A program made the position numbers and the translations under genes. The notes below the pieces were generated by a model that was not told the DNA's origin, searched no databases, and saw only the letters and a program-made list of their open reading frames with translations. From assembly GCA_016792685.1 (NCBI GenBank), contig JAEULQ010000072.1:1-32539 (forward strand): a stretch of DNA of 32,539 nucleotides. The letters are read 5' to 3'. Positions 432-29,959 of this stretch are shown in pieces. The number at the start of each line of letters is the position of its first letter. The first letter of the stretch is position 1. This stretch comes from Tabrizicola sp. Its GTDB lineage: Bacteria > Pseudomonadota > Alphaproteobacteria > Rhodobacterales > Rhodobacteraceae.

Positions 432-464
432 GCTGCCGCTTTAGGACGGCATGGTGAAGCATAT

Positions 465-482: not shown

Positions 483-496
483 CGCGATGACAGGCC

Positions 497-1417: not shown

Positions 1418-1435
1418 CGTCTCACGCCTTCCCTG

Positions 1436-3015: not shown

Positions 3016-3081
3016 CGCCGTCATCCCTCCCCCAGATTTGCCGCAAGGCTAGCGGTCACGACCGGCGCTGTCCACCGGCTG

Positions 3082-3109
3082 ATCATACTAACATGTTAGA
3101 ATCTTGACA
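3082..3109. promoter_or_regulatory. Divergent promoter elements around operator 1
   Basis: Leftward, a -10-like TATGAT (minus strand of 3082-3087) abuts the palindrome at 3088-3099, with CTGTCA 17 bp upstream as a possible -35. Rightward, a perfect TTGACA at 3104-3109 begins 5 bp after the palindrome and could be the -35 of the transporter operon, although no convincing -10 follows at 17 bp. A protein bound to the palindrome would lie between -35 and -10 of the leftward promoter, as expected for a repressor. Boxes are by eye. Confidence 0.4.
3088..3099. promoter_or_regulatory. Operator 1: palindrome CTAACATGTTAG (putative GntR site)
   Basis: Perfect 12-bp palindrome with AT at matching outer positions on both sides (AT-n-palindrome-n-AT). 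It lies in the 279-bp region between the divergent ABC ATPase and binding-protein genes. The identical 12-mer occurs at 16216-16227 beside the GntR gene and a 10/12 version at 12370-12381, so it is the best candidate operator of that regulator. Confidence 0.7.
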
Positions 3110-3250
3110 GGCCCCCTGCCCCCCTGCCAAGCTGACCCAAGGAAAGGCTGCCGCACGGGGAGGGGAGGCCCCAGGGTTCTGTCGTCGACCAAGAACGGTC
3201 GGCGCAACGCACCGGTTTTCAGACGTCACCACCGCAACAGAAAACGGCCC

Positions 3251-3266
3251 CCGGCGCGTTCGCCGG
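3251..3266 (+). other. 5' leader hairpin before the sugar-binding protein gene
   Basis: CCGGCG-CGTT-CGCCGG, a perfect 6-bp GC stem with a 4-base loop, 13 bp before the AGGGAGGA ribosome-binding site of the gene at 3294. It could stabilise the leader. The rest of the 3100-3250 stretch is GC-rich leader in which I see no further gene or motif. Confidence 0.4.
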
Positions 3267-3293
3267 CAAGGGCATTCCAAGGGAGGAACGAAC

Positions 3294-4919
3294 GTGAAGG
3301 TCGAACACTACAATGCTATGCTGCAAGGCCGGATGAGCCGGCGGCGCATGCTGCAGGGGGCTACGGCGCTTACGGCCATGGCGGCCCTGCCGATGTCGGC
3401 GCGCATGGCCTCGGCGCAAGACAACATCCGGGCCGAAATCCTGAAGATCCCGGGCGTGGGCATGGGTTCGCCCACCGATGCCGACTGGCAGAAGGTCGGC
3501 GAGATGTGCCTTGGACCCACCAAGGCAAACGTGGCCGAGGGCGAGTTCGCGGGGGTTGAGCTGACCTTCATGGGTCTGAACAACCAGAACCTGCACAACG
3601 TGCTGTTCCGCGGCTTCCTGAAGCCCTGGGAGGCCTATACCGGGGCCAAGATCAACTGGATCGACCTTGCCCAGGCCGATTACAACCCGCGGCTCCAGCA
3701 GGCCATCGCCACCGGAACGGTCGACTTCGACATCATCGAGATGGGCGCACCCTTCGAGGGCGACACCGCCGGCAAGGGCCTTCTCGACGAAATGCCCGAC
3801 TGGGTGAAGACCCAGATCGAGGCGGATGACCTCGTGGCCTATCTGCAGCCGCCGGTCGGCACCTGGAACGGCAAGTCCTACCGGATCACCATCGACGGCG
3901 ACTGCCATACGCTGGCCTACCGGAAGGACTATTTCGGCGAGGGCGGCATCGGCGGTGCCGAGATGCCCAAGCACTGGGAAGACGTGAACGCGATGTCGGT
4001 GGCCCTCAAGGGCAAGACCGACCCGCTGACCGGGCTGCCCGCCTATGGATTCCTTGACCCGCTGAAGGGCTGGGGTGGCTTCGGCTTCTACTTCCTGGAA
4101 GACCGGGCGACCGCTTACGTCAAGCACCCGTCCGACCCCGCCTGGCTGTTTGATCCCGACACGATGAAGCCGCGGGTCAACAACCCGGGCTGGGTGCAGG
4201 CGATCCAGGACGTGATGGACCTGATCAAGGCCGACGCCTATCCGCCGGACCAGATCAACGCCGACCCCGGCACCACTGCCTTCAGCCAGTTCCTCGCCGG
4301 AACCGGTACGGCGCTGACCTGGTGGGGCGATGTGGGTTCGAACGCCCGGACCTCGGACACCTCGGTCGTGGGCGACGTCGTGGGCTTCGACATCAACCCT
4401 GGCGCCAAGCGGGTCTACAACCACGCCGCCGGTGCCTGGGAAGAGACCGAAAACTTCGCCCCGAACCTCGCCTATCTGGGCTGGGGCGTCTATGTCACCA
4501 GCCGTGTCTCGGGCGACGAGAAGAAGCGCAAGGCCGCCTGGTCGGCTGCCGCGCATCTTGGCGGCAAGGACATCTCGCTCTGGATGGCGGCCTATCCGTC
4601 GGGCTTCCAGCCCTATCGCAACTCGCACTTCCAGTTCGAAGAGTGGGAAGCGGCGGGCTATGACCGGGCCTTTGTCGAGGATTACCTCGGCTCGAACCGC
4701 GACAGCTACAACCACCCGAACGCAGCGATCGAGCCGCGCATCCCCGGCATCTTCCAGTACTACTCGGTCGCCGAGGACGAACTGGCCAAGGGCTTTGCCG
4801 GTCAGTACGCAAGCGCACAGGAAACGGCCGATGCCATCGCCGCCGCCTGGGAGAAGATCACCGACCAGATTGGCCGCGACAGTCAGATCGCACTCTACAA
4901 GGCCTCGCTCGGCATGTGA
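3294..4919 (+). CDS. Tat-exported ABC sugar-binding protein (family 1, large)
   Basis: Periplasmic receptor of a CUT1 carbohydrate importer. The start is GTG with AGGGAGGA 6 bp upstream. The N-terminus carries a twin-arginine signal (SRRRML, residues 15-20), a hydrophobic stretch and a likely cleavage site ASA|QD after residue 41. At 541 residues it is much longer than MalE-type proteins (about 400) and belongs to the large family-1 binding proteins of alphaproteobacteria. Tat export suggests folding before export. It is followed by a stem-loop (4928-4953), then two permease genes. The ligand is unknown; context (ribokinase, RbsD/FucU proteins, aldose dehydrogenase, sugar-acid dehydratase under the same operator) suggests a monosaccharide, glycoside or sugar acid. 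Confidence 0.88.
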   Translation: MKVEHYNAMLQGRMSRRRMLQGATALTAMAALPMSARMASAQDNIRAEILKIPGVGMGSPTDADWQKVGEMCLGPTKANVAEGEFAGVELTFMGLNNQNLHNVLFRGFLKPWEAYTGAKINWIDLAQADYNPRLQQAIATGTVDFDIIEMGAPFEGDTAGKGLLDEMPDWVKTQIEADDLVAYLQPPVGTWNGKSYRITIDGDCHTLAYRKDYFGEGGIGGAEMPKHWEDVNAMSVALKGKTDPLTGLPAYGFLDPLKGWGGFGFYFLEDRATAYVKHPSDPAWLFDPDTMKPRVNNPGWVQAIQDVMDLIKADAYPPDQINADPGTTAFSQFLAGTGTALTWWGDVGSNARTSDTSVVGDVVGFDINPGAKRVYNHAAGAWEETENFAPNLAYLGWGVYVTSRVSGDEKKRKAAWSAAAHLGGKDISLWMAAYPSGFQPYRNSHFQFEEWEAAGYDRAFVEDYLGSNRDSYNHPNAAIEPRIPGIFQYYSVAEDELAKGFAGQYASAQETADAIAAAWEKITDQIGRDSQIALYKASLGM

Positions 4920-4927
4920 CACTGTGA

Positions 4928-4953
4928 GGGGGTGGGCAATTCTGCCCACCCTC
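4928..4953 (+). terminator. Stem-loop between binding-protein and permease genes
   Basis: GGGTGGGCA (4930-4938), loop ATTC, TGCCCACCC (4943-4951): a perfect 9-bp stem extendable by about two pairs. No U-run follows, so it is more likely an mRNA-stabilising or partially attenuating element that raises binding-protein levels over the permeases, as known in malE-malF-type operons. Confidence 0.65.
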
Positions 4954-4994
4954 CCTGATTCTGCGCGCGGGCGGGAGACCGGCCGCGCAAACCC

Positions 4995-6113
4995 TTGGCG
5001 GGCAAACGATTGGGCAGCAGCGAACACCTTCACATCGTCACCAGTGACGATATCACGCCCGGCCGGAAGCGGTTTGGCCAGACGCTGGTCTGGGGCAGCG
5101 CCGGGCTGATGCTTTGCGTGGGCGCGGCCCAACTGGTTCAGTCGCTTGGCTGGCAGGACTTCGGCTTCCAGACCTGGCGTCCGACGCTTTACGCCTTCTG
5201 CCTCTGGGCCACGGCGCTTTGCTGGGCGCAGGTGCTGGTCCGCGGCGAACAGGGCAAGCGCACGCTCTTTGTCCTACCCGCAGCGCTCTTCGTCGTCTCG
5301 CTCACGATCTTTCCGCTGCTCTTCGGCCTGATCATCGCCTTTTCCAGCTGGAACCTCTCCAGCCCGGACGGCCGCCAGTTCAACGGGGTCGCGAACCTCG
5401 TACAGATGTGGAACGACCCGTTCTACTGGAACGCCATGTGGAACATGGTCTGGTATACGCTGGCCATCATCGTCGAATATGCCATTGCCTTTGGCCTCGC
5501 GCTTCTGCTGAACGCCCAGATCCGGGCGCGCAAGTTCTTCCGCGTGGCCTTCCTTCTGCCGCTGATGCTGTCGCCTGTCGCCGTGTCCTGGATGATCGGC
5601 AAGTCGATGCTCGAACCCCGCTTCGGCCCGCTCGCCCGACTGGGCCGCGCGATGGGATGGGAGAACCCCTCGTTCTTCGGCTCACCGGAAATGGCCAAGC
5701 TCACCATCATGCTGATGGACGCCTGGACCTTCATCCCCTTCATGATGATCATGCTGCTGGCGGGCCTGCAGGCGATCCCGAAGGAACTGACCGAGGCGAG
5801 CCGCGTCGATGGCGCCACGGGCTGGAAGAGCTTCTGGGAAGTGACCTTTCCCCTGATGCTTCCAGTTTCGGTCACGGCAATCCTGATCCGCATCATCTTC
5901 AAGCTGAAGCTTGCCGATATCGTGATCAACGTCACTTCGGGCGGGCCCGGAGGGGCCACCGATACGGTCACCAGCTTCATCTTCCGTGAGTACCGAGACC
6001 GGTCGAACGTGGGCTACGGCACGATGCTGGCGATGGTCTACCTCGTGTTCATCGTGATCGCGATGACCATCCTCATGAAACTTGCCGCGCGCTGGTCGGG
6101 ACCGAAGACATGA
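4995..6113 (+). CDS. Sugar ABC transporter permease, MalF/UgpA type
   Basis: Inner-membrane permease subunit. The C-terminal 290 residues form a typical MalF-type domain with the EAA loop LTEASRVDGATGWKSFWEVTFPLMLP, where the cytoplasmic ATPase docks. About 80 extra N-terminal residues carry additional hydrophobic segments (around residues 33-50 and 65-80), longer than the usual 290-320-residue permease. No ATG is available near the 5' end; the frame opens after a stop at 4956-4958. TTG at 4995 is used; TTG at 5010, preceded by GGCGGGC, is an equally plausible start. The following permease overlaps by 4 bp (ATGA). Confidence 0.85.
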   Translation: MAGKRLGSSEHLHIVTSDDITPGRKRFGQTLVWGSAGLMLCVGAAQLVQSLGWQDFGFQTWRPTLYAFCLWATALCWAQVLVRGEQGKRTLFVLPAALFVVSLTIFPLLFGLIIAFSSWNLSSPDGRQFNGVANLVQMWNDPFYWNAMWNMVWYTLAIIVEYAIAFGLALLLNAQIRARKFFRVAFLLPLMLSPVAVSWMIGKSMLEPRFGPLARLGRAMGWENPSFFGSPEMAKLTIMLMDAWTFIPFMMIMLLAGLQAIPKELTEASRVDGATGWKSFWEVTFPLMLPVSVTAILIRIIFKLKLADIVINVTSGGPGGATDTVTSFIFREYRDRSNVGYGTMLAMVYLVFIVIAMTILMKLAARWSGPKT

Positions 6114-7030
6114 CCGAAACCGCGATCTTCAAGGACAGTGCCGCCGACCGCAGCTTTCGCGCCAAGTGGTTTGCCAACCGCCTCGTGGTCTATGGCGTGC
6201 TGATCCTCTGGGCGGTGATCTGCCTCTTCCCGATCTATTGGACCATCACGACAAGCTTCAAGATGGCCCCGAACGTGATGCAGGGGAACATGGTGCCCTG
6301 GGTCGACTTCCAACCGAAATGGCTGGGGTGGAAATCGCTGGGCCTGTCGCCCGACACGATCGGCACCGAATCCACGGTGCGGGACGAATTCGTCAAACGC
6401 TTCCTGAATTCCTCGATCACGGCACTGGTGTCGTCCTTGCTTGCCGTCATTCTCGGCTCGCTGGCCGCCTATGGGCTGTCGCGGTTTTCCTACAAGTTCC
6501 TCTGGATGAAGAACGACGACATCTCGTTCTTCTTCCTCAGCCAGCTTATCCTGCCGCCGGTCGTGCTCGCCCTGCCCTTCCTCGTGCTCTACAAGGAGCT
6601 GGCGCTTCTGGACACCACGATCGGGCTGATCCTGCTTTATACGCTGTCGGTCCTGCCCATCGTCATCTGGATCATGCGTGACCAATTCGCCTCGATCCCG
6701 ACTGAGCTGGAAGAGGCCGCGATGGTCGATGGCCTGGGCGTCTGGGGCGCCTTCTTCACCATCATCCTGCCCATCGCGCTTCCCGGCATGGTGGCGGCCT
6801 TCATCCTGTCGCTTGTCCTGACCTGGAACGAATACTTCTTCGCAGCGCTCCTGACCTCGACCCATTCCAACACCTTGCCGGTGATGGTCGCCAGCCAGAC
6901 CGGCAGCCAAGGCATCAGCTGGTGGTCGATGGCCGCGCTCTCGACGGCGGCGATCCTGCCGCTTGTCATCATCGGCGTTGTGCTGGAACGCTTCATCATC
7001 AAGGGCATGGCCGCAGGGGCCGTGAAGTAG
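6110..7030 (+). CDS. Sugar ABC transporter permease, MalG/UgpE type
   Basis: Second inner-membrane permease of the importer; 306 residues with about six hydrophobic segments and the MalG EAA loop LEEAAMVDGLGVWGAFFTIILP near residue 200. The C-terminal end VLERFIIKGMAAGAVK is characteristic of MalG-family proteins. The start ATG overlaps the upstream permease stop (ATGA), indicating translational coupling. It forms the transmembrane heterodimer with the preceding gene product. A second RbsD/FucU-type gene follows 33 bp downstream. Confidence 0.9.
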   Translation: MTETAIFKDSAADRSFRAKWFANRLVVYGVLILWAVICLFPIYWTITTSFKMAPNVMQGNMVPWVDFQPKWLGWKSLGLSPDTIGTESTVRDEFVKRFLNSSITALVSSLLAVILGSLAAYGLSRFSYKFLWMKNDDISFFFLSQLILPPVVLALPFLVLYKELALLDTTIGLILLYTLSVLPIVIWIMRDQFASIPTELEEAAMVDGLGVWGAFFTIILPIALPGMVAAFILSLVLTWNEYFFAALLTSTHSNTLPVMVASQTGSQGISWWSMAALSTAAILPLVIIGVVLERFIIKGMAAGAVK

Positions 7031-7063
7031 GCTGGGCGGTATTGCACTCACCGGGGGGAAAGG

Positions 7064-7519
7064 ATGCTCAAGGGAATAGACCAGCGCCTCTCTGCCGAAG
7101 TTGTCCATGTCCTGATGCTGATGGGTCATGGCGATGACCTGGTGATCTGCGACGTGAACCATCCCGCCGCGACCATCGCTGCCGAGACGACTTATGGTCG
7201 CCTGATCGACATGGCGGGCTGTGACATTCCCACCGCTGCCCGCGCGATCCTTTCCCTGATGCCACTTGATACGTTCGTCCCATCCCCAATCCGCCGAATG
7301 CAGGTCGTGGGTGACCCTGCCGCCGAAGTACCGGTCTTCGCCCGAATGCAAGCTGTCGCAGACAGCGCAGAGGGCCACCCGGTCGGGATGGAAAGCCTGG
7401 AACGCTTCGCCTTCTACGACGCCGCAAAACGCGCCTTCGCTATCATCCGCACGGCCGACAGTGGGCCTTATGGCTGCTTCATCCTCAAGAAGGGCGTCGT
7501 GACGCTGCCTGAGCTTTAG
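7064..7519 (+). CDS. RbsD/FucU-family sugar mutarotase (copy 2)
   Basis: Paralogue of the protein at 1436-1888: both begin MLKGID, share MGHGD (catalytic His), LPLDTF versus MPLDTF, the FAFYDAAKRAFAIIRT block and a YGCFILKKGV ending. 151 residues, normal for the family. GGGGAAAGG precedes the ATG. It is the last gene of the rightward transporter operon and is followed by a strong hairpin. Having one copy in each arm of a divergent transport locus suggests that spontaneous mutarotation of the imported sugar limits flux, or that the copies act on different sugars. The mutarotase role comes from the family, not from this sequence. Confidence 0.85.
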   Translation: MLKGIDQRLSAEVVHVLMLMGHGDDLVICDVNHPAATIAAETTYGRLIDMAGCDIPTAARAILSLMPLDTFVPSPIRRMQVVGDPAAEVPVFARMQAVADSAEGHPVGMESLERFAFYDAAKRAFAIIRTADSGPYGCFILKKGVVTLPEL

Positions 7520-7532
7520 CCGGGCTGATCTC

Positions 7533-7566
7533 CACTCTGGCAGGCGGAAACTGGCCTGCCAGAGTG
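7533..7566 (+). terminator. Hairpin terminator of the transporter operon
   Basis: A 13-bp perfect stem, CACTCTGGCAGGC (7533-7545) and GCCTGCCAGAGTG (7554-7566), with an 8-base loop, 14 bp after the RbsD-like stop codon. Only a weak T-rich stretch follows, so termination may be partial. Confidence 0.65.
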
Positions 7567-7618
7567 CTCATTTCCCCCGAACCCTCGCAATCGAAGCTCG
7601 GCACCCCATCTCTGTAGG

Positions 7619-7637
7619 AGCGAACCATCCGTTCGCT
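7619..7637 (+). other. 5' leader hairpin of the fasciclin-domain gene
   Basis: AGCGAAC-CATCC-GTTCGCT, a perfect 7-bp stem immediately before the AAAAGGA ribosome-binding site at 7640-7646. It could influence translation or mRNA stability of the gene at 7653. No known riboswitch fold is recognisable. Confidence 0.45.
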
Positions 7638-7652
7638 TGAAAAGGACTTTCC

Positions 7653-8063
7653 ATGAACATTGTTGATACCGCTGCCGGTAACCCGGCTTTCTCGACGCTT
7701 GTTTCGGCCATCAAGGCCGCCAATCTGGGCCAGGCTCTTGCCGCGAATGGCCCCTTCACCGTGTTCGCGCCGACGAACGAGGCTTTTGCCAAGCTTCCGG
7801 CTGGCACCGTCGAGGATCTGGTCCTTCCTGCCAACAAGGACAAGTTGACCAAGATCCTGAAACTGCATGTCGTTTCGGGCAAGCACATGGCGTCGGAGTT
7901 CACCGGCAAGACCGCCGACATTGCCACGCTTGGCGGTGAAAAGGTCACTGTCACGGGCAAGGACGGTTCGGTTCATGTCGGCAAGGCCAAGGTCAGCTCG
8001 GCCGATCTCAACGCCTCGAATGGCGTGATCCATGTGATCGACACCGTGATGATGCCCGCCTGA
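7653..8063 (+). CDS. Single-domain fasciclin (FAS1) protein
   Basis: 136 residues that are essentially one FAS1 domain: the H1-like box [17 protein letters not shown] (residues 33-49), the central LKLHVVSGK segment, and the C-terminal [15 protein letters not shown] (H2-like) box. FAS1 domains usually mediate extracellular adhesion, but this protein starts directly at the domain with no signal peptide or membrane segment. A clear ribosome-binding site (AAAAGGA, 6 bp spacing) supports the start. It has its own leader hairpin and intrinsic terminator, so it looks like an independent unit inserted between sugar operons. Function unknown. Confidence 0.85.
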
Positions 8064-8089
8064 ACGCGGTCAGTTGCTTAACGAGTTCG

Positions 8090-8111
8090 GGGGGCCGCAA
8101 GGCCCCCTTTT
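8090..8111 (+). terminator. Rho-independent terminator of the fasciclin gene
   Basis: GGGGGCC (8090-8096), loop GCAA, GGCCCCC (8101-8107), then TTTT. A textbook intrinsic terminator 27 bp after the stop codon. Its T-run touches the stop codon of the convergent creatininase-family gene. Confidence 0.9.
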
Positions 8112-8848
8112 CACGCGACCAGCCCAAGACAGCTTCGCAGGTGCTTTAGGGCGATCTCCGTTCCGCTTTCTCCCAGGTCGCGGGTCGCTTGTGGTGCGGT
8201 CTCGGTGTACCACAGCCCCCCGGCGTTGGCCCGGTCCATTGCCACCGTTTCGGGCGCCAAGGCCTGCATCAGGGCGGTTTCTCCCTTCCCGGCATGGTCG
8301 AACGGAAAGTCCGCCCCCTTCGGAAACAGCGGGTGGATGCGGATCCAGTTGAACGGGTCCTCGGCTGCCGCGTGACGTTCGTAATAGTCCGCCATCTCGC
8401 GCCTGCCCCACCAGCCGGCGCCGCGCTCGACCTCCAGATACCGAAAGATCGCGTTGCGCGCGCCCAGACGGAAAGTCAGGTCGGTCGGCATCCCTTGCGC
8501 GAAATTCTCGGTCTGGTGGTGGATCACACCGTGGATATTGCGAAAGCCGCCCGCCAGCAGCGCCGCGAACAGCCCCTCGACCATCGGCAAGAGGGCCGAG
8601 GCATCCACATGCAGCGTCCCCGTCCCCTCCGGACCGGCGACTGCGTGGCTTGCCGCGCCATAGGCGAAGGACGGCAGGAGAACGACCTCATCTTCCAGCC
8701 GCGACAGAACCTCGGTCACCGCAAGAAGATCGACGCCCGAAGGCAGGTGCTCGCCATGATATTCCATCACGCCGATCGGCAGAACGAAGGGCACGCCCTG
8801 GCGCTGAGCGTCACGCAACTCCTCTGGGCGCATCCGCTCGAACCGCAT
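8111..8848 (-). CDS. Creatininase-family metal-dependent hydrolase
   Basis: 245 residues, the usual size of creatininase/creatinine amidohydrolase proteins. The N-terminal metal motif LPIGVMEYHGEHLPSGVD supplies the Glu, His and Asp ligands, and the later DHAGKGETALMQAL matches the family's HAGxxET block. The segment that normally reads NGHGGN or NGHYEN is HHQTEN here, keeping the Glu but changing the surroundings of the bridging His. The ATG overlaps the kinase stop by one base (TGATG), so the two are translationally coupled. Members hydrolyse cyclic amides, and related enzymes open other rings; in this operon a lactone, lactam or cyclic ketone derived from a sugar is a reasonable but unproven substrate. 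Confidence 0.85.
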   Translation of the reverse strand: MRFERMRPEELRDAQRQGVPFVLPIGVMEYHGEHLPSGVDLLAVTEVLSRLEDEVVLLPSFAYGAASHAVAGPEGTGTLHVDASALLPMVEGLFAALLAGGFRNIHGVIHHQTENFAQGMPTDLTFRLGARNAIFRYLEVERGAGWWGRREMADYYERHAAAEDPFNWIRIHPLFPKGADFPFDHAGKGETALMQALAPETVAMDRANAGGLWYTETAPQATRDLGESGTEIALKHLRSCLGLVA

Positions 8849-10326
8849 CAGCTCGCGCCCAACTGATGGGCGATGTCACGGCTGGCGCGGTAGAAGGCCT
8901 TCCAAAGCGGGTATTGCTTGCGGTAGGTTGCCACCGCCTCCGGCGCGACCCGCGTGGCAACCGGATTCCAGCGGACGATGTCGCCCTCCTCAACCAGCCC
9001 GACGGAAAGTGCAGCAAGGAACGCGTCGCCATAGCTCGCCCCGATGGTCTTGTCGCACACCTCTTGCACCGCGCCGCACAGGTCCGAAGTCGCCTGCAGC
9101 CAAAGCGCGTTCTTAGTCCCGCCGCCCACAGCCCGCACGGTCCGGGGCGTGGCGCCGACCTCGGCACAGGTTTCGAAGACATGAGCCGTGCCCATCGCGA
9201 TCCCCTCCAGCACCGCCCGGTAAAGGTCGGCGCGGGTATGGGTCAGGTCAAGGCCGAAGAACGCCCCCTTGGCCTTCGGATCATGAATCGGCGTCCGCTC
9301 GCCCGAGAAATACGGAAGGCAGATCAACCCCTTGGCCCCCTTTGGGCTGTCGGCGGCCTCTGCCGCCAACTGGGCGAAGTCCGCGTCCCGTGCCAACTGA
9401 TCGCGGAACCAATGCGTCAGCGTCCCGCTGGTCGCAAGGCCGGCCATCGACGCATGTTGCCCGGGGAAAAGCCAGGGCGCATACCAAAGCCGCGGGTCAC
9501 GCACCGGTTGGTCGGTCACCTGGATGATGAAGATGGTCGAGCCATACATCAGCATCATCTCGCCCGGGCTCGCGACACCGACGCTTACCGCCTCGGCCGC
9601 CGCGTCGATGGTGCCGCAGGTGACCGGCGTGCCTTCGGCAAGGCCAGTTTCAGCCGCCGCTGCGGTGGTCACATGGCCCGCGATTTCGGTCGACCACATC
9701 AGGCGGGGAAGACGCTCCAGGGGAAGGATGTCGGCGAGGTCGGCAGTCCAGTCCTGCAGCCCCACGTCATAGAGCGGCGAGAAATTGGCCGCCGTGTAAT
9801 GATCGATGACGTAGTCCCCGGTCAGTTTCCAAGTCAGGTAGCTGGTCGAGGTCAGTACCTTCGCGGTCCTGGCAAACAGCTCGGGATGCGTCTCCTTCAG
9901 CCACAGGATCTTCGGCCCCACCGACTGCGAGGTCAGCGCGTTGCCGCAATGTGCAAGGATCCGATCCTCGCCGATCGCCGCATTCAGCGCCGCGATCTGC
10001 GCCGTTGCCCGCGTGTCCACGCCATAAAGGACACCGTTCATCAGCGGGGCGCCTGCAGCGTCGACCGGCAGCATGCAGGGGCCGATGGCACTGGCCGCGA
10101 TGGCCTTGATCTCTTTCGGGTCCACTCCCGATTGGGCGAGCAAGGCCTTGGTCACATGGACAAAATCGCCCCACCAGTCCTCCTCGGCCCGGTGTTCAGC
10201 CCAGCCCGGACGCGGGACCAGCATCTTGTGCGGGCGGGTGGCGGTGGCAAGGATCGTACCGTCCGGCGTGACCAGCACGCCCTTGGTCTCGAATGTGCCG
10301 ATGTCGATGCCAAGGGTACAGGTCAT
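8848..10326 (-). CDS. FGGY-family carbohydrate kinase (xylulokinase-like)
   Basis: 492 residues, typical FGGY length. The N-terminal phosphate-binding loop GIDIGTFETKGVL (residues 6-18), the GVDTRA catalytic segment (about residue 103), GPKILWLKETHPELF (about 137) and the C-terminal adenosine motif RAVGGGTKNALWLQATSDL (about 415) are all present. It phosphorylates a ketose or polyol in the cytoplasm; specificity (xylulose, ribulose, erythritol and others) cannot be read from these motifs. The start overlaps the M42 peptidase stop (ATGA) and the end overlaps the creatininase start, so it is in the middle of a tightly coupled operon. Confidence 0.88.
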   Translation of the reverse strand: MTCTLGIDIGTFETKGVLVTPDGTILATATRPHKMLVPRPGWAEHRAEEDWWGDFVHVTKALLAQSGVDPKEIKAIAASAIGPCMLPVDAAGAPLMNGVLYGVDTRATAQIAALNAAIGEDRILAHCGNALTSQSVGPKILWLKETHPELFARTAKVLTSTSYLTWKLTGDYVIDHYTAANFSPLYDVGLQDWTADLADILPLERLPRLMWSTEIAGHVTTAAAAETGLAEGTPVTCGTIDAAAEAVSVGVASPGEMMLMYGSTIFIIQVTDQPVRDPRLWYAPWLFPGQHASMAGLATSGTLTHWFRDQLARDADFAQLAAEAADSPKGAKGLICLPYFSGERTPIHDPKAKGAFFGLDLTHTRADLYRAVLEGIAMGTAHVFETCAEVGATPRTVRAVGGGTKNALWLQATSDLCGAVQEVCDKTIGASYGDAFLAALSVGLVEEGDIVRWNPVATRVAPEAVATYRKQYPLWKAFYRASRDIAHQLGAS

Positions 10327-11399
10327 CGGGTCAGACTCAGGTCCGGGGTGATGCGGTCGAGCATGAGGTCAAGGAGCCGGGTCAGCCCGTCAAGATCGGC
10401 CAGATCGACGACCTCAAGCGCGGAATGCGAATAGCGCATGGGGAAGCCCACATCGAGACAGGCCACTCCTTCCGGCCCCATGAACTGGATGTAGGAAAGG
10501 TCGGTCAGCGCGCCGGTATGGGCCGAACGCTGCAGGGCCAGCCCGCCCCCGGCTGCGGCATCTTCGGCCAGTTGCACGAGTGCGGGATGCGGAATGACGC
10601 CGTTCAGGGTTCCGCGCCCGTGGAAGGAATAAAGACTGATGCCGGGGCCACCGCCCAGGGCAACGTCACCGCGATGGGTCATGTCCGGCGTGTCGCAGGC
10701 CAAAAGAAGGTCGATCTGCAGGGCGATGTCCGGCGCAAGCGCCGTGGCCGCGGGCAGGACGCCGCGCAGGTTGAACTCCTCCTGCACCGACCAGACGAGA
10801 TGCAACGTCGGGCCGGGCTTGCCGATCCGCGCTGCCGCAAGTGCCAAAAGTACGGCACATCCCGCCCGGTCGTCGACCGAGGTTCCGGCAAGCCGAGCCC
10901 CGGCAAGGTCCAGAACGCGCGGCAGGTAGGTCACCGGAGTCCCGATCCTCACCCCCGCGGCCTGCGCCTCTGCCGCCGAGGCAAAGCCCGCATCGACGTA
11001 AAGTTCGGCATAGGGCAGGACCTTGTACTTTTCCTCCGGTCCCGTAGCGTGATGCGACTTGTTGGCGATGATGCCGGGCAGATCGCCCTTGTCAGTGCAC
11101 AGCACCACGGCCTGCGCCGGAAGCGCCCGTTCCGGCACGCCGCCAAGGCGTTCCAGGCGGATCAGGCCGTTCGGCTCCACTTTGCGGACGACAAAGCCCA
11201 ACTGGTCCATATGGGTGAAGACCATGACCGAAGGCAGGGCGGGATCGCCCGGGATGGTGCAGCTCAGGTTGCCAAGCCGGTCCGAGCGGTGCGCAAGGCC
11301 CATCCGATCGAGATGCCCCGCTATCGCGCGGGCCACTCGCGTTTCATGGCCGGACAGGCCAGGGATCAGCATCAGTTCGGTCAGGGTCTCGCGGATCAT
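10323..11399 (-). CDS. M42-family metallopeptidase (SgcX/FrvX/YsdC-like)
   Basis: 358 residues, normal for M42 di-metal aminopeptidases. The metal and catalytic residues appear intact: THMDQLGF (His and Asp), SVDDRAG (bridging Asp), VQEEFNLRG (catalytic and ligand Glu), ACDTPD (Asp) and MRYSHSALE (His near the C-terminus). The open frame continues upstream to 11507, but that stretch only translates a palindrome cluster; ATG 11399 with GCGAGG before it gives the normal MIRETLTELMLIPGLSGHE start. M42 homologues recur in sugar operons (E. coli sgcX, frvX), where their substrate is unknown. It lies downstream of a BtpA/SgcQ gene, as in the sgc gene set, and overlaps the FGGY kinase by 4 bp. Confidence 0.88.
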   Translation of the reverse strand: MIRETLTELMLIPGLSGHETRVARAIAGHLDRMGLAHRSDRLGNLSCTIPGDPALPSVMVFTHMDQLGFVVRKVEPNGLIRLERLGGVPERALPAQAVVLCTDKGDLPGIIANKSHHATGPEEKYKVLPYAELYVDAGFASAAEAQAAGVRIGTPVTYLPRVLDLAGARLAGTSVDDRAGCAVLLALAAARIGKPGPTLHLVWSVQEEFNLRGVLPAATALAPDIALQIDLLLACDTPDMTHRGDVALGGGPGISLYSFHGRGTLNGVIPHPALVQLAEDAAAGGGLALQRSAHTGALTDLSYIQFMGPEGVACLDVGFPMRYSHSALEVVDLADLDGLTRLLDLMLDRITPDLSLTR

Positions 11400-11414
11400 T
11401 GGGGCCTCGCGCAG

Positions 11415-11482
11415 GCAAATTCCTTCGAAGGAATTTGCAATTTTCTTCGAAGAAAATTGTCCGGAATTTTCGAAAATTCCGG
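11415..11482. repeat. Cluster of three abutting perfect palindromes centred on TTCGAA
   Basis: Palindrome 1 spans 11415-11438 (24 bp, half GCAAATTCCTTC), palindrome 2 spans 11438-11459 (22 bp, half CAATTTTCTTC) and palindrome 3 spans 11461-11482 (22 bp, half CCGGAATTTTC). All are perfect and centred on TTCGAA, with centres 22 and 23 bp apart. They fill the 97-bp gap between the BtpA-family and M42 genes of one operon and are AT-rich in a GC-rich region. Possible roles are an mRNA processing or attenuation element, a REP/BIME-like repeat, or a multi-dimer protein-binding array. Confidence 0.9.
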
Positions 11483-11496
11483 CGCTGCACTGGCCG

Positions 11497-12309
11497 TCAT
11501 GCCCCACCTCTCGCCGCCCGCGCGCGGTCCATGAAGTCCTTCGCCCGCTCCGGGTCCACTGCCGCCCAGGTATCGCCGCCCTGCTTCAGGGCCGAGCCCA
11601 CGATGCATCCATCCGCGATCCGCAGCACCTCGGCCACGGTGGCATGCTTGACGCCGGTATTGGCCAACACAGGTGTCGTCGGCAGCACCCGCTTTACCGC
11701 CTCCAGATCCTCCATCCGCGCCGCCTCACCGGTGATCGCGCCCGAGACGAGCACCGCATCGGGCACCGAGGAGAAGACCGCCGAGCGTGCCCGGTCTGCC
11801 AGAGACCGGGGGTCGAGCGAGCCCGCGAATTCGGCCGACACGTTGTAGAGCGTGGCGACATCCCCCACCCCCAGCCGCGCGCCATAGCGCCGGGCTGCTC
11901 CGGCATCCGGGGCCCAGAGGCCCATGTCGCTGGCATAGGTGCCGGTGAAGATCTCACGCACGAAAGCGGCCCCCGTTGCCGCCGCCAATGCCATCGTCGC
12001 CATCGGATCCCAAAGCACGTTGACGCCGAAGGGCACGGTGATCCGATCCCGCAGTCGGCCGATCACATAGGCCATCGTCGCGGTCGAGGCCGTATCGACC
12101 TTAAGCTCATAGGGCCGGTCGTTCTCGTTCCCGAACATCACCGCATCGACGCCCGCCGCCTGCAGGGCGGCAAGGTCGGCCTCGGCGCCGCGCAGGATCG
12201 CCGCCACGCCCCCCGCCGCATCGTGCAAGGGCGTGCCTGGCATTGCCCCAAGATGGACCATGGCTATCACGGGCTTCTTCCGCCCGAAGACCGTCTCGAA
12301 CCGAGTCAT
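11497..12309 (-). CDS. BtpA/SgcQ-family protein
   Basis: 270-residue TIM-barrel protein of the BtpA family. The N-terminal PVIAMVHLGAMPGTPLHD is the diagnostic opening, followed by GVDAVMFGNENDRPY, PFGVNVLWDPMATMALA and the C-terminal TPVLANTGVKHATVAEVLRIADGCIVGSALK barrel-end phosphate-loop-like segment. GGGAAGGGAGAG precedes the ATG. BtpA was linked to photosystem I stability in cyanobacteria, while SgcQ of E. coli sits in a sugar operon; no enzymatic activity is established that I can cite. It is the first gene of the leftward operon under the operator at 12370. Its fold and the absence of a recognisable aldolase in the cluster make a lyase role worth considering. Confidence 0.85.
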   Translation of the reverse strand: MTRFETVFGRKKPVIAMVHLGAMPGTPLHDAAGGVAAILRGAEADLAALQAAGVDAVMFGNENDRPYELKVDTASTATMAYVIGRLRDRITVPFGVNVLWDPMATMALAAATGAAFVREIFTGTYASDMGLWAPDAGAARRYGARLGVGDVATLYNVSAEFAGSLDPRSLADRARSAVFSSVPDAVLVSGAITGEAARMEDLEAVKRVLPTTPVLANTGVKHATVAEVLRIADGCIVGSALKQGGDTWAAVDPERAKDFMDRARAARGGA

Positions 12310-12369
12310 GACTCTCTCCCTTCCCCTGACGCTAGCGCGAAAGACCTTGGCCGGGAAGCCTGCAGCATA

Positions 12370-12381
12370 CTAGCATGTCAG
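12370..12381. promoter_or_regulatory. Operator 2: CTAGCATGTCAG (variant putative GntR site)
   Basis: Matches CTAACATGTTAG at 10 of 12 positions and keeps the CATG core, the outer CT/AG and the flanking AT at 12367-12368. It lies in the 91-bp gap between the divergent BtpA-family gene and the aldo/keto reductase. On the minus strand it is directly followed by TATGCT, the same juxtaposition of palindrome and -10-like hexamer (TATGAT) seen at operator 1. Confidence 0.6.
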
Positions 12382-12400
12382 AAGAAGACGGGAGGCGCGC

Positions 12401-13423
12401 ATGCAGGCAAGACGGCAATGGGACCGACTGGGAAATGGCGGGGTGTCGTTCACCGAACTCGGCTTCGGTGCGGCGCCGCTCGGCAACCTCTTCCGGGCGA
12501 TCACCGAGCCCGAGGCCCAGGCAATCCTCGAGGGCGCATGGGCCGCCGGGGTGCGGTATTTCGATACGGCACCGCTCTACGGGCTGGGCCTGTCCGAGAC
12601 CCGCCTGAACCATTTCCTGCGCGGAAAGTCGCGAGATGACTTTGTGATCTCGACCAAGGTCGGTCGCATCCTGCAAGTCACCGCGCCGGACAAGCGTGAC
12701 GGGTTCGGAAAATGGGTCGATGTCCCCGCCCGCCGCGAGATCTATGATTACAGCCACGACGGGGTGCTGCGCAGCCTGGAGTTCAGCCTGGAACGGCTCG
12801 GGCTGGACCGCGTCGACATCCTCTATGCCCATGACCTCGACATCTTCAACCATGGCACCTTCGACGCGATGCTGGCGCGGCTTGAAGAGTTCATGGCGGG
12901 CGGCTACCGCGCCCTTTGTCGGCTGCGCGACGAGGGGGTGATCAAGGCCTTCGGCGCTGGGCTGAACGAGACCGAGCCCTGCGACTGGCTGATGGCGCGT
13001 GGGGATTTTGATATCTTCCTTCTCGCCGGGCGCTACACGCTCTTGGAACAGGGTGCGCAGGGCTTCATGGACCGTGCGGCGGCAAAGGGAGTGGGGGTCG
13101 TGATCGGCGGGCCCTACAATTCGGGCATCCTGGCCACTGGGCCACGCCCTGGCGCCCACTACAATTACGCACCTGCCCCAAAGGCAGTGATGGACCGCGC
13201 CGGGCGGCTGCAGGAAATCTGCGAAGCCCATGACGTCCGTCTCGTTGACGCGGCCTTCCGCTTCCCTCTGCTTCATCCTGCGACCGTCAGCGTGATCCCC
13301 GGAGGTCAGGGCCAGGCGGACATGGCCAGCAATGTGCAGGCAGCGGCAGCGCAGATTCCGCAGGCGCTATGGCAAGACCTGGCTGCCGAGGGGCTGATCC
13401 CCAAGGCTCTGCTTCAACCCTGA
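12401..13423 (+). CDS. Aldo/keto reductase, D-threo-aldose (L-fucose) 1-dehydrogenase-like
   Basis: 340-residue NAD(P)-dependent oxidoreductase of the AKR superfamily. The catalytic tetrad is visible: Asp55 and Tyr60 in FDTAPLYG, Lys86 in STKVG and His144 in LYAHD. The beginning LGFGAAPLGNLF and the SETRLNHFLRGKSRDDFVISTKVGR pattern resemble D-threo-aldose/L-fucose dehydrogenases, which oxidise an aldose at C1 to the lactone. GGGAGG lies 5 bp before the ATG. It is transcribed alone, divergently from the BtpA operon. A C1 oxidation step fits with a sugar-acid dehydratase (16262) and candidate ring-opening hydrolases encoded nearby. Confidence 0.87.
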   Translation: MQARRQWDRLGNGGVSFTELGFGAAPLGNLFRAITEPEAQAILEGAWAAGVRYFDTAPLYGLGLSETRLNHFLRGKSRDDFVISTKVGRILQVTAPDKRDGFGKWVDVPARREIYDYSHDGVLRSLEFSLERLGLDRVDILYAHDLDIFNHGTFDAMLARLEEFMAGGYRALCRLRDEGVIKAFGAGLNETEPCDWLMARGDFDIFLLAGRYTLLEQGAQGFMDRAAAKGVGVVIGGPYNSGILATGPRPGAHYNYAPAPKAVMDRAGRLQEICEAHDVRLVDAAFRFPLLHPATVSVIPGGQGQADMASNVQAAAAQIPQALWQDLAAEGLIPKALLQP

Positions 13424-13426
13424 CCG

Positions 13427-13441
13427 CCGCCAGTCTGGCGG
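13427..13441. terminator. Hairpin between convergent genes
   Basis: CCGCCAG-T-CTGGCGG, a 7-bp perfect inverted repeat three bases after the aldo/keto reductase stop. The remaining 13442-13613 gap holds further short hairpins (GCGGT/ACCGC near 13443; GGGGGT-TTCAC-ACCCCC near 13506; CGGTT-TCTAG-AACCG near 13530) and no gene. Together they probably terminate both converging transcripts; no clear U-run follows. Confidence 0.45.
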
Positions 13442-13613
13442 AGCGGTTTCACCGCAAGTCTTTCCTCTCGCCTCTGCGCGCAGGCGCGCAACCGGCTCGG
13501 GCGGCGGGGGTTTCACACCCCCATGCCAGCGGTTTCTAGAACCGGTGGCGAGACCTCTGGCATACCCCGTGGGATAGTTGCAGACAGGAAGATGAAGAAG
13601 TCGCCTGGCCCGA

Positions 13614-14507
13614 TCAGCCGCCCTGCAGCCGAGCGCGGATCGCGGCTTCGGTGATCGAGGCCCTGCGGTCATGGGCGAGGCTTACATGCAGCGCGGCGGC
13701 GGCCTGACCGAAGGCGGCGGCACCCTGCAGGCTTGCCCCGCGCGCCCATTCTGCAGCAAGCGCCCCGATGAATGCGTCCCCCGCCCCATGGGTCGAGACG
13801 ACCTGCACCGGCTGCGCGGCTTCAGCCCTGGTCGTGCTGCCCTCGGAGAGAACCAGGCCGTCACCCCCCAGGGTCACGATCACCGCTGCCGGACCAAGCG
13901 AGCGAAGCGCCAGGGCGGCGTCTTGCGCATCAAGGCCGGCCTCCTCCCGGCCAAGAAGTCCGGCGGCCTCGCCCCGGTTGACGACCAGAAGGTCGATCTG
14001 CCGCATGAGCGCGGGGGCAACCGGGCGGGCCGGGGCGGCATTCAGAAGGACCCGTATCCCCGCTGACCGGGCGCGGGTGGCCAGTGCCAAGTTCGCAGGC
14101 TCCGGGATTTCGCTTTGCAGAAGGAGGAGCGCACAGTCCTTGGGAAAGGTCACCGCAGCAGGATCAAAGGCAAGGTTTGCGGCCGAGACGATGACTGCGC
14201 CATATCCGCCATCCGGCAATGAAATCGCCACCGACATGCCAGAGGCACCTGGATGGGTCTGGACCTGCCCCTGCCCGACCTCTGCTGCCCGCAGCGCCGT
14301 GCGCAGCACCTCGGCGCTGGCGTCACTGCCCACCGCCCCAGCCATTTCGGACCTGGCCCCGGCGCGGGCCACCGCCACGGCCTGGTTGCCACCTTTGCCG
14401 CCAAAGACATAGCGCACGGCCGTGCCGACCAGGGTCTGGTCGACGCGCGGCAGAGACGGGGCTTCGACCACAACGTCATGGTGCAATGACCCCGCGCAGA
14501 GGATCAC
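13614..14507 (-). CDS. PfkB-family carbohydrate kinase (ribokinase-like)
   Basis: About 297 residues with the family motifs GGKGGNQAVAVARAG, NAAPARP, TLGGDGLVL and the signature THGAGDAFIGALA, whose Asp (about residue 244) is the catalytic base. The frame opens further upstream to 14624, but that overlaps the preceding gene by more than 100 bp; GTG 14507 (MILCAGSLHHDVVVEAPSLP) gives the normal kinase N-terminus 14 bp after the upstream stop. It is the last gene of the gntR-TIM barrel-kinase operon. It resembles the other ribokinase here only at family level; a 2-keto-3-deoxy sugar acid or a pentose are possible substrates. Confidence 0.85.
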   Translation of the reverse strand: MILCAGSLHHDVVVEAPSLPRVDQTLVGTAVRYVFGGKGGNQAVAVARAGARSEMAGAVGSDASAEVLRTALRAAEVGQGQVQTHPGASGMSVAISLPDGGYGAVIVSAANLAFDPAAVTFPKDCALLLLQSEIPEPANLALATRARSAGIRVLLNAAPARPVAPALMRQIDLLVVNRGEAAGLLGREEAGLDAQDAALALRSLGPAAVIVTLGGDGLVLSEGSTTRAEAAQPVQVVSTHGAGDAFIGALAAEWARGASLQGAAAFGQAAAALHVSLAHDRRASITEAAIRARLQGG

Positions 14508-14520
14508 CGGCCCTGTGGCA

Positions 14521-15486
14521 TCACGCGCCAAGGAGGGCCGCCATGACCAGCGTGGTCGCTGCTGCCGCATCCTGCCGGGCTTGGGCGGCGGCAAGGGCCG
14601 GGTCCACCGCCAGTCGCGCAGCAAGATCGATCAGGCGGTCGGTCAGGCGGATATTGGCGCGGGATTCCGCGACCGGGTCGATGCCGGAGTGATCGGGGAA
14701 AGTGTCGAAATAGATGACCCCGGCATAGCCGATCCGGGCCAGCGCCACGAGAAGCTCGACCGTCTGCACCGGATGAACCGCACCCGCGATCAGCCCATCG
14801 TCGCGCTTGCCGTAGCCGTCGTTCAGATGCAGGCCCAGGATCCGGCTTTTCCGCGCCGCAAGCATCGCGGATTTGGCCGGCATTTCGCCCGCGTAGAGCA
14901 TATGCGCAAAGTCGAGTGTCACTCCGGTATTGGCGCGCCCCACTTCGGCCAGGGCCAGAAGGGTCGTCGCCATGTCGGGCATCAGCGCATGGGCGCGCGG
15001 CTCGTTCGGCTTGTATTCCACTGCGACGTCGATGGCCGGATTGTGGTCTGCCACTTCGGCCAAGGCAGAGATCGTGTCGTCCCACATCCGACCGTAGTCC
15101 GCCTGGAAGCTGTAGTCGAACCCGTCCTGCCCCATCCAGAGCGTCATCTGACTGCCACCCATTTCCGCGCAGGCATCGATGCCACGTCTGGTCAGATCGA
15201 TGGCGGCCCGGCGCAAGTCCGGATCAGGGTGGGTGAAAGCGCCAAGCCTGAACCCGTCCTCGGTGTAGTAGCGCATCGCAAGGCCGTTCAGGACCAGCCC
15301 CTGGTCGGTCAGAAGCCGCGACAGTGCCACCGGATCGTGCGCGGCAAAATGGTCGGGATAGTTGAGATCGGCCGCCGAAAGCCCGCCCACCCGACCCGCG
15401 CCGGCAAGCATGTCGGCCACGGTCCCGCCCTTCACCTTGAAGGCGTTCAGCCGAGCGGCATAGCGGGGGCGGTTCAAACGCGTCAT
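14521..15486 (-). CDS. Xylose isomerase-like TIM-barrel sugar isomerase/epimerase
   Basis: 321-residue cytoplasmic protein of the AP-endonuclease-2/sugar isomerase fold. Divalent-metal ligands of this fold can be picked out: Glu in VAVEYKPNEPR, Asp and His in TLDFAHMLYAG, His in GLHLNDG, and an acidic residue in YFDTFP. The first two-thirds (RYAARLNAFKV, FAAHDP, GLAMRYY, FRLGAFTHPD) resemble L-rhamnose isomerase-like and ketose 3-epimerase-like families rather than xylose isomerase itself. The ATG overlaps the gntR stop by ATGA, so it is coupled to its regulator. It probably interconverts an aldose and ketose or epimerises a ketose or keto-acid in the pathway. Confidence 0.82.
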   Translation of the reverse strand: MTRLNRPRYAARLNAFKVKGGTVADMLAGAGRVGGLSAADLNYPDHFAAHDPVALSRLLTDQGLVLNGLAMRYYTEDGFRLGAFTHPDPDLRRAAIDLTRRGIDACAEMGGSQMTLWMGQDGFDYSFQADYGRMWDDTISALAEVADHNPAIDVAVEYKPNEPRAHALMPDMATTLLALAEVGRANTGVTLDFAHMLYAGEMPAKSAMLAARKSRILGLHLNDGYGKRDDGLIAGAVHPVQTVELLVALARIGYAGVIYFDTFPDHSGIDPVAESRANIRLTDRLIDLAARLAVDPALAAAQARQDAAAATTLVMAALLGA

Positions 15487-16214
15487 GTCGGGTCAAAGAG
15501 ATCGGGCCGGTCACGTTCCAGCGGTTCAAGGTAGGAGATCAGCTGGCGCAGATGGCTGCGTACCGCCAGTCGGGCCTGTGCAGGATCGCGCGCCTCAAGC
15601 GCCGCAAGGATCGCTTGGTGCTCGGCCAGCGTGGCAGGTATCCGACCCGGCACCGGCAGCACCAGTTGCCGCGCCCGGTTCACATGCAGCCAGGCGGTTT
15701 CGGACACCTGAGCAAGCTTTGGAAACCCGGTGAAATTGAGCAAGAGCTCATGCATCGCCGCATCCATCGCATAGAATCCGGGCGTATCGCCATCGGCCAC
15801 CAGGGCCGCCTGAACGGTCAGGTTTCGCCGTAAAAGCGTCAACTGCTCATCCGTAATCCGCTCGGCCACGCGTTCGATGGCGGCAAGCTCGATCGCCTCG
15901 CGCAGAAAGGCGCCTTCGCGAATCTCCTGCATCGAGAACCGCGCGACAAAAGTCCCCGCCTGCGGCACGACATCGACCAGCCCTTCCGCCTGCAGCCGGG
16001 CCACTGCATCGGCCACCGGACTACGACTGACCCCAAGCGCATCGCAGATTTCGGGCTTGCGCAGGATTTCGCCCGGCCGATAGGTCAGGGACAGGATTGC
16101 CTGGCGCAGCGTCTGATAGACCCGTTGCCCGAGCGAGCCCGAGAACTCTGTCAAGGGCTTTAGTCGCAGAGTTGCGGACGGCTCTTGTTCGGCGGGCGGG
16201 GCTGGTTGTAACAT
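15483..16214 (-). CDS. GntR-family transcriptional regulator (FCD/FadR subfamily)
   Basis: DNA-binding regulator, probably a ligand-relieved repressor of the surrounding sugar genes. The winged helix spans about residues 33-95 (VYQTLRQAIL, RKPEICDALGVSRSPVADAVARLQAEGLV). The C-terminal FCD domain has the metal or ligand residues MDAAMHELL (Asp, His), LAEHQAIL (His) and AVRSHLRQ (His). The ATG at 16214 has no ribosome-binding site and lies one base from operator 3, so the real start may be downstream, for example TTG at 16154 (MTEFSGSLGQRVY), or the message may be leaderless. It is the first gene of an operon with the TIM-barrel and PfkB genes, implying autoregulation. Confidence 0.87.
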   Translation of the reverse strand: MLQPAPPAEQEPSATLRLKPLTEFSGSLGQRVYQTLRQAILSLTYRPGEILRKPEICDALGVSRSPVADAVARLQAEGLVDVVPQAGTFVARFSMQEIREGAFLREAIELAAIERVAERITDEQLTLLRRNLTVQAALVADGDTPGFYAMDAAMHELLLNFTGFPKLAQVSETAWLHVNRARQLVLPVPGRIPATLAEHQAILAALEARDPAQARLAVRSHLRQLISYLEPLERDRPDLFDPT

Positions 16215-16215
16215 G

Positions 16216-16227
16216 CTAACATGTTAG
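16216..16227. promoter_or_regulatory. Operator 3: palindrome CTAACATGTTAG beside gntR
   Basis: Identical to operator 1. An overlapping half-copy, TAACATG at 16209-16215, extends it toward gntR, giving two overlapping palindromic frames (GTAACATGCTAAC and the main site). It lies between the divergent gntR and altronate-dehydratase-like genes, 35 bp before the latter's ATG. Autoregulation and control of both arms follow if this is the GntR site. Confidence 0.7.
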
Positions 16228-16261
16228 GCACCTGTGCCGGGCTGTCAAGGAAGGGACGATC

Positions 16262-28565: not shown

Positions 28566-28576
28566 AGACTATGTTT

Positions 28577-28592: not shown

Positions 28593-28655
28593 TTCATCCG
28601 GGCGTTTTGCAGCAGAGATTGCACGCCAGCACGGCGGCTTTTGGGAGGAAAACCA

Positions 28656-29933: not shown

Positions 29934-29959
29934 GTCCTCCCGGACCTGACTGATCCCAT

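Follow-up and report, generated by a model that had tools for sequence, protein, structure and literature searches.

The DNA analysed here, a stretch of 32,539 nucleotides from Tabrizicola sp. (assembly GCA_016792685.1, contig JAEULQ010000072.1; the whole stretch is called the window), raises the question why one 12-bp palindrome recurs in three gaps between divergently oriented genes, one of them beside gntR, which encodes a GntR-FCD protein (15483-16214). We favour, with a probability of roughly three in four, the explanation that the palindrome CTRRCATGYYAG is the operator of this protein, that it acts at five promoter regions (the three of the window and those of fucF and fucG elsewhere in the genome) through repression relieved by a pathway intermediate, and that the core regulon is a Route III pathway of the L-fucose type.

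A palindrome conserved in divergent intergenic regions

A search of the window places CTAACATGTTAG exactly at two positions and the variant CTAGCATGTCAG at a third, as an earlier note on this DNA had described, and the window annotation confirms that each site lies in a gap separating divergently oriented genes, one of them adjoining the GntR-FCD gene.

3088-3099, no strand: operator 1, CTAACATGTTAG, between abcA (minus) and the solute-binding protein gene SBP (plus); its extended minus-strand form CTAACATGTTAGTATG covers 3084-3099
12370-12381, no strand: operator 2, CTAGCATGTCAG, between btpA (minus) and the aldo/keto reductase gene AKR (plus); its extended minus-strand form CTGACATGCTAGTATG covers 12366-12381
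16216-16227, no strand: operator 3, CTAACATGTTAG, between gntR (minus) and gdAH (plus); its tandem form GTAACATGCTAACATGTTAG covers 16208-16227

Read on the minus strand, each of the three sites is CTRACATGYTAG-YATG; nowhere else does the genome come within two mismatches of CTAACATGTTAGYATG, which 3088 matches on the other strand too. Together the three gaps cover 407 of the first 19,334 bp. The statistics of the window alone are weak support for the palindrome: some repeated perfect 12-bp palindrome appeared in 54 of 400 windows simulated with a first-order Markov model, and at up to three mismatches the window holds 4 matches against 2.7 expected, so that chance recurrence had been called "very unlikely" too readily for the window by itself. 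It is position and conservation in relatives that carry the case.

In the whole assembly (3,583,112 bases in 136 contigs) the exact CTAACATGTTAG is present in two copies, both inside the window; one further site differs by one mismatch and 11 by two, including the one at 12370. The degenerate form CTRRCATGYYAG has six matches, namely the three window sites, one site before a FucG-like hydrolase gene, one before a FucF-like dehydrogenase gene and one inside a likely coding sequence of 353 residues. The other two-mismatch sites (L004-L010, L012, L014) were not adopted; five lie in likely coding sequence and four outside it (L004, L007, L009, L012), the L012 site adjoining GAPDH/DUF808 genes and the L004 site a PHP-domain gene, without a link to the pathway. 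At up to three mismatches, no operator was found before permease 1 of the window or near the separate LacI/sugar ABC transporter region (27501-32539).

Conservation was followed by a contig scan with the GntR protein as query, which gave 39 loci; L015-L048 are 67-87% identical to it, while among the distant members L049 is 38% and L050-L053 are 29-31% identical. Cultured relatives with the locus include Tabrizicola sp. TH137 (L028) and Rhodobacter kunshanensis (L025). Sites were chosen as the best-matching position within a short interval, with up to four mismatches allowed. Upstream of gntR the core is exact in 29 of 35 rows (the window and L015-L048), and between btpA and AKR a site is present in 26 of the 28 loci examined, 25 of these 26 matching CTRRCATGYYAG. 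In both classes the core positions carry about 2 bits each and most flanking positions less than 1, the exception being the flank beside gntR, which belongs to an extended element including the start codon of that gene. Sites equivalent to operator 1 stand before SBP in L040, L041 and L043. In an order-wide sample, GntR (E <= 1e-55) was found in 48 of 292 genomes and 26 of 112 genera; the 48 matches comprise 26 new loci, 4 already in the first set and 18 without a locus. The operator lies upstream of gntR at two mismatches or fewer in 25 of the 26 same-order loci (exact in 13), whose GntR proteins are 54-87% identical. Since L181 and L183 repeat L015 and L037, this leaves 23 of 24 further loci with the operator, 11 of them exact. 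Even G025, of another family and with a GntR 54% identical, keeps it as CTAACATGTTAC. Thus the orthologous loci keep the motif, as the earlier note had expected of related genomes, and their conservation supports its proposal that a single operator recurs in the three divergent promoter regions. Of the matrix that it had put forward, ATnCTRRCATGYYAGnAT, the 12-bp core holds and the outer flank does not, ATn...nAT being present on one side only.

Across 25 same-genus genomes CTRRCATGYYAG has 94 forward matches against 13 for the backward control; in 16 more distant genomes the figures are 10 and 21. In one genome (G015) gntR is split over two frames. Another, G012, has no gntR match, yet an AKR-type site at 17,806 of contig C53 (18,718 bases), perhaps because of an assembly break, as the contig ends near the site. 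We inspected 18 stretches around CTRRCATGYYAG sites of relatives, of which seven hold genes of the locus. None of the 11 others was adopted: six are in likely coding sequence (L207-L211, L215), one is over the start of an open reading frame (ORF; L218) and four are outside (L212, L213, L214, L219). The L212 site (genome G003), CTGACATGTTAG, is 25 bp upstream of an MFS transporter gene (1-732, minus). Besides, the distant locus L049 has CTAATATATTAG upstream of its gntR-like gene at 9896-9907, within a longer perfect palindrome, which may be a related operator, that of a paralogue.

The regulator, its promoters and the start codon of gntR

The sites overlap or adjoin promoter-like sequences, as listed here with the regulator gene. 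A promoter consensus scan returned four promoter-like sites in 19.4 kb against a mean of 2.6 in shuffles.

15483-16214, minus: gntR, regulator with a GntR winged helix-turn-helix and an FCD domain (Pfam FCD PF07729, 4.1e-27; GntR PF00392, 1e-18; both above cut-off)
3082-3110, minus: predicted abcA promoter CTGTCA-17-TATGAT, with operator 1 filling most of the spacer (consensus scan)
3104-3109, plus: TTGACA, candidate -35 of the SBP operon, 4 bp past operator 1 (read from the sequence)
12347-12376, plus: candidate AKR promoter TTGGCC-18-TAGCAT, with its -10 within operator 2
12329-12358, minus: candidate btpA promoter CTTCCC-18-TAGCGT, whose -35 begins 11 bp past the 12-bp core
16221-16248, minus: predicted gntR promoter TTGACA-16-TAACAT, with its -10 inside operator 3 (consensus scan)

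The gntR -35 TTGACA recurs with at most one mismatch in 35/35 rows, with spacers of 16-19 (best of spacers 14-20). TTGAC stands at the same offset from the operator in the SBP rows of L040, L041 and L043, and at btpA 23 of 26 rows have a TAGNNT at a distance of 33-35 bp from the end of the core (search range 20-45 bp). In all ten rows tested, the CTGGCA half of the fucF operator could serve as a -35, with TAGNNT spaced 18 bp from it. The candidate -35 of AKR is weak, with two mismatches here and up to four in other rows.

Counted from the core start, the ATG of gntR lies at 13 bases, one base past the core and within the tandem form, and is in frame in 33/33 rows (L015-L047). No sequence resembling a Shine-Dalgarno element precedes it in 35/35 rows; in this count and that of the promoters the register was shifted by 8 bases for L038, L045 and L047. 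As the predicted -10 box lies within the core, the ATG one base beyond it and no Shine-Dalgarno-like element before it, the gntR mRNA is probably leaderless and self-repressed. Outside the L015-L047 clade the in-frame offset is weaker, being seen in 13 of 26 further loci. A further operator directly precedes the apparent start of permease 1, at the same offset as at gntR, in L016, L017, L018, L023, L029, L222 and L224, and at one base more in L019; the L222 locus (G015) has both the SBP site and the permease 1 site. The YATG element, centred 8 bp away, is shared by the gntR class (where it is the start codon), the btpA/AKR class and the abcA class. Because it is missing at fucG and fucF, we rejected it as an essential third half-site and regard it as accessory only. 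An ORF that opens at the ATG of the operator runs to the btpA start (ATGA) in the window, L015 and L016; a leaderless upstream ORF before btpA was nevertheless rejected, its length, frame and stop varying elsewhere, with L020 reading ATG TAG.

The GntR protein itself very probably reads the operator. At the Arg position of SR-PVREAL, which we take to correspond to Arg49 of E. coli FadR, 78 orthologue rows (70 distinct) have Ala (54), Ser (23) or a gap (1), whereas Arg is present in 10/10 paralogue rows and also in L049 and L050. Of 78 operator rows, 0 have GT-N2/3-AC in the core and none has TKGT/ACMA within 44 bp; a GT-N3-AC spans the core edge in 7 of 35 gntR rows, where the flanks vary. Residues D151, H155, H199 and H221 are conserved in 33/33 rows (L046, L049 and L050 left out) and presumably form the Asp/His site of the FCD domain, which would bind a metal.

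Site conservation, gene families, the position of the start codon and the altered helix are read directly from the sequence, and from there we infer binding, repression, direction of control, inducer, promoters, leaderless mRNA and exact sugar. Without substrate, a GntR dimer would cover the -10 box (gntR, AKR), the spacer (abcA) or the -35 box (fucF), and RNA polymerase would be blocked; at gntR, the start codon of a leaderless mRNA directly beside the core would make autoregulation tight. An acidic intermediate, for example L-fuconate or its 2-keto-3-deoxy product, might bind at the conserved Asp/His site and release GntR from the DNA. With slightly less than an even chance of being right, we suggest that a FadR-type GntR branch re-specified its recognition, loss of the Arg going along with a change from GT...AC to an inside-out AC..GT palindrome; the extended operator would have taken in both the -10 box and the start codon of a leaderless gntR, and one word would act as promoter, operator and translation start, uniting Route III with a BtpA/M42/FGGY/creatininase branch.

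Remote members and the predicted pathway

The earlier note had taken the regulon of about 19 kb as self-contained. Conserved sites on two other contigs widen it. The site at C40:22167 is 45 bp before a gene for an SDR whose best PDB matches (8xwk, 8y11/8y46/8y4b and 8y4j, at 313 bits) suggest a FucF-like enzyme; 8y46, 8y4b and 8y4j are given as complexes of L-2-keto-3-deoxyfuconate 4-dehydrogenase (PMC11199699). The site at C105:24581 is 22 bp before an FAH-family gene whose product, with L-2,4-diketo-3-deoxyrhamnonate hydrolase (8gsr, 338 bits) as its best PDB match, is probably FucG-like. Orthologue searches returned 32 matches for each of the two, 30 of them with loci. CTGGCATGTCAG stands 41-49 bp from the fucF ATG in 9 of 30 fucF loci, and CTAACATGTCAG precedes the fucG orthologue also in G007, G016, G017 and G022, which with the own genome makes 5 of 30 FAH loci; all nine and all five are gntR-positive. 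By virtue of the operator, the two unlinked pathway genes fucF (contig C40) and fucG (contig C105) thus appear to belong to the regulon. G004 keeps fucF and fucG and has no gntR orthologue (best 32%), and its two remote sites (L142, L061) are both changed at core position 11. The same genes can also be neighbours of the regulator: L041 has gdAH, SDR and FAH grouped next to gntR, as does L042, where the middle ORF was judged by size only, and fucF and FAH lie beside gntR in L187, L188, L189, L191, L192 and L204. An SDR directly before fucG (L003:744-1487) was rejected as a FucF orthologue (30% identity). Divergent from fucF, L100 has a frame at 325-1446 (minus; 373 residues translated, no Pfam match), and this gene may share the fucF operator.

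The window genes around the operators are the following.

497-1417, minus: ribokinase (TIGR02152, 304.6 bits, cutoff 299.65)
1436-1924, minus: RbsD/FucU family (FucU model 80.0 bits, RbsD 29.5; below the cutoff of 141)
1960-3024, minus: abcA, ABC transporter ATPase of the UgpC subfamily (505.7 bits, cutoff 432)
3294-4919, plus: SBP, ABC transporter solute-binding protein
4995-7030, plus: two ABC permeases (4995-6113, 6110-7030)
7064-7519, plus: RbsD/FucU family (FucU model 76.0 bits, RbsD 27.8; below the cutoff of 141)
8111-8848, minus: creatininase-family amidohydrolase
8848-10326, minus: FGGY carbohydrate kinase
10323-11507, minus: M42-family peptidase-like protein, its true start probably nearer 11411
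11497-12309, minus: btpA, BtpA/SgcQ family protein (247.1 bits, cutoff 153.4)
12401-13423, plus: AKR, aldo/keto reductase, candidate aldose 1-dehydrogenase (FucA role)
13614-14513, minus: PfkB sugar kinase
14521-15486, minus: xylose-isomerase-like TIM barrel (AP_endonuc_2; best PDB match 3ktc)
16262-17773, plus: gdAH, altronate/galactarate dehydratase family (SAF and GD_AH), candidate sugar-acid dehydratase (FucC role)
17770-18540, plus: S-adenosylmethionine (SAM) methyltransferase, in 5 of 39 relative loci (L026, L031, L035, L036, L046)
18537-19334, plus: alpha/beta hydrolase, HaHSL family (368.8 bits, cutoff 320)

Route III leads through mutarotase, aldose 1-dehydrogenase, lactonase, dehydratase, SDR and FAH-type hydrolase to pyruvate and lactate or glycolate, with COG2721 as the dehydratase for D-arabinonate (as outlined in PMC11199699 and PMC6336799). 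The best PDB matches of AKR are L-galactose dehydrogenases (102 bits), and gdAH is of the GarD/UxaA family, to which the D-arabinonate dehydratase of Herbaspirillum huttiense also belongs. Together with fucF and fucG, the dehydratase, AKR and the mutarotases point to a Route III pathway for L-fucose, L-galactose or D-arabinose, three sugars that enzymes shared among the routes do not separate. The core regulon would proceed from ABC uptake through the FucU mutarotases, the AKR dehydrogenase and the GarD/UxaA-family dehydratase to the FucF dehydrogenase and the FucG hydrolase. The window and the remote members offer putative candidates for every step except a sure lactonase, for which the creatininase-family protein (8111-8848) is a guess. 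BtpA, M42, FGGY, creatininase, both PfkB-family kinases and the TIM barrel are without a role in Route III as these sources outline it, and the methyltransferase and the lipase (the alpha/beta hydrolase) are kept by some relatives only.

Other features of the window were noted in passing. A fasciclin-domain gene (7653-8063), matched among relative loci in L020 only, separates the transporter operon from the creatininase gene. The gap between btpA and M42 (11415-11482) holds three tandem perfect hairpins centred on TTCGAA, the middle one without a second copy in the own genome even when one mismatch is allowed; similar hairpins occupy the same gap in L019, L020, L029, L030 and L033 among 21 loci and are possibly an intercistronic element of mRNA processing or stability. 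A LacI-family regulator (27501-28550) followed by a separate sugar ABC transporter makes up 27501-32539.

Alternative readings and comparison with known systems

Several observations weigh against our interpretation. The scan of the own genome, which the earlier note had proposed, gave 6 forward against 4 backward-control matches of CTRRCATGYYAG, little excess, yet five of the six are upstream of genes of one pathway. AKR is without its site in 2 of the 28 loci examined (L043 and L047), the permease/SBP class has only 11 rows, and the fucG class is small (6 rows), motif-collected and partly conserved in its flanks. Of 17 same-genus gntR-positive genomes, the fucF site is present in 9 and the fucG site in 5; G020 and G024 have fucF without the site, and in G013 only 52 bp upstream were available. 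The argument from G004 depends on a single genome, and there the sites still differ from the consensus by one base. Nor does the arrangement at btpA and SBP, where the operator precedes the candidate -35, look like plain occlusion. Finally, the FucU scores do not reach the curated cut-offs, characterised enzymes are only distantly related to AKR, and no dedicated lactonase was identified among the pathway genes, where no search was aimed at one.

Part of the evidence could be read in another way. TAACAT and TAGCAT are plausible -10 boxes at gntR and AKR, and the palindrome might be a promoter element, two overlapping divergent -10 boxes with TAACAT on each strand, and no regulator site. This is very improbable: at btpA and fucF the candidate -10 (TAGNNT) is elsewhere at a constant distance, yet the 12-mer is conserved in both its halves, and the gntR-less G004 keeps the fucF half over the -35 candidate while the other half is changed. 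We give a similarly slim chance to another regulator of the cell reading the palindrome, with GntR a mere neighbour. Relatives do encode several other GntR proteins and the window has its LacI protein; however, the site accompanies gntR in 25 of 26 same-order loci, altered helix and altered operator co-occur, and the LacI gene is 11 kb off, beside another transporter.

Two variants of the regulon deserve more weight, and both are still unlikely. GntR could be a dual regulator that represses gntR, AKR and fucF and activates btpA and SBP, where the operator is just upstream of the -35; the constant distance from core end to TAGNNT at btpA and the TTGACA 4 bp past operator 1 fit such a role. The promoter boxes are themselves inferred, and the candidate abcA promoter holds the operator in its spacer, so that one bound site would act oppositely on its two sides. 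The natural substrate, on the other hand, could be other than L-fucose, L-galactose or D-arabinose, in which case the BtpA-M42-FGGY-creatininase-PfkB-TIM branch would handle it; some half of the window genes have no role in Route III as outlined in the sources. This too we consider rather doubtful: in the 54-55% clade (L200-L206, short loci) the matched neighbours of gntR are AKR, RbsD/FucU and gdAH or fucF-FAH, and what has remained beside the regulator is therefore the Route III set.

Altogether, the regulon is real and conserved, has five operator sites in this genome, and is wider than first thought and of a known general kind. Regulator, motif, inducer class and pathway can now be put to the test, the regulator being present in 26 of 112 genera sampled from the order; its many orthologues and one gntR-less genome with changed sites form a natural series for the study of changes in GntR operator specificity, and the function of BtpA/SgcQ and M42 proteins in sugar metabolism becomes more accessible. 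The exact motif was not found in the literature searched, and the matches listed on BtpA/SgcQ, GntR, diketo-deoxy acids, Rhodobacterales regulons and L-fucose hold no description of the regulon; RegPrecise and supplements were outside this search, and we do not claim that it is absent from print.

A comparable prediction is that of Leyn et al. (2017). In the main text of that study (PMC5507952) FucR regulons with L-fucose loci are predicted in Halomonas, A. marincola and Rhodobacteriaceae bin08, which resembles our case in the type of prediction and in one genome of the Rhodobacteraceae; our GntR might be identical with FucR, of which that main text gives neither family nor motif. The enzymes are like those of Route III in H. 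huttiense and Xanthomonas (COG2721 dehydratase, SDR FucF, FAH-type hydrolase, mutarotase and ABC transporter, as outlined in PMC11199699 and PMC6336799). Unlike there, fucF and fucG are on other contigs, linked by the operator, and an additional BtpA/M42/FGGY/creatininase set is present. The regulator shares with DgoR, UxuR, ExuR and LldR of the FadR subfamily, as far as these are treated in the sections consulted of Suvorova et al. (2015; PMC4494728), a winged helix-turn-helix with FCD, a palindrome in divergons and autoregulation, and the YATG centred 8 bp away fits the weak additional half-sites reported there at 7-12 nt from the operator centre. The consensus of that subfamily, TKGT-N2/3-ACMA, is typical with exceptions, and our system departs from it in having no GT-N2/3-AC in the core and Ala or Ser for the helix Arg. 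In its non-canonical operator it is like the exceptions BioR (TTATMKATAA) and NanR (TGGTATAW repeats) of the same source, from which it differs in operator sequence and function. What appears to be new here is a predicted -10 box within the core, the gntR ATG one base beyond it and a core without the FadR-type GT...AC; the departure of the operator from the canonical form, the changed recognition helix and the closeness of start codon and core would set this regulon apart within a known general kind.

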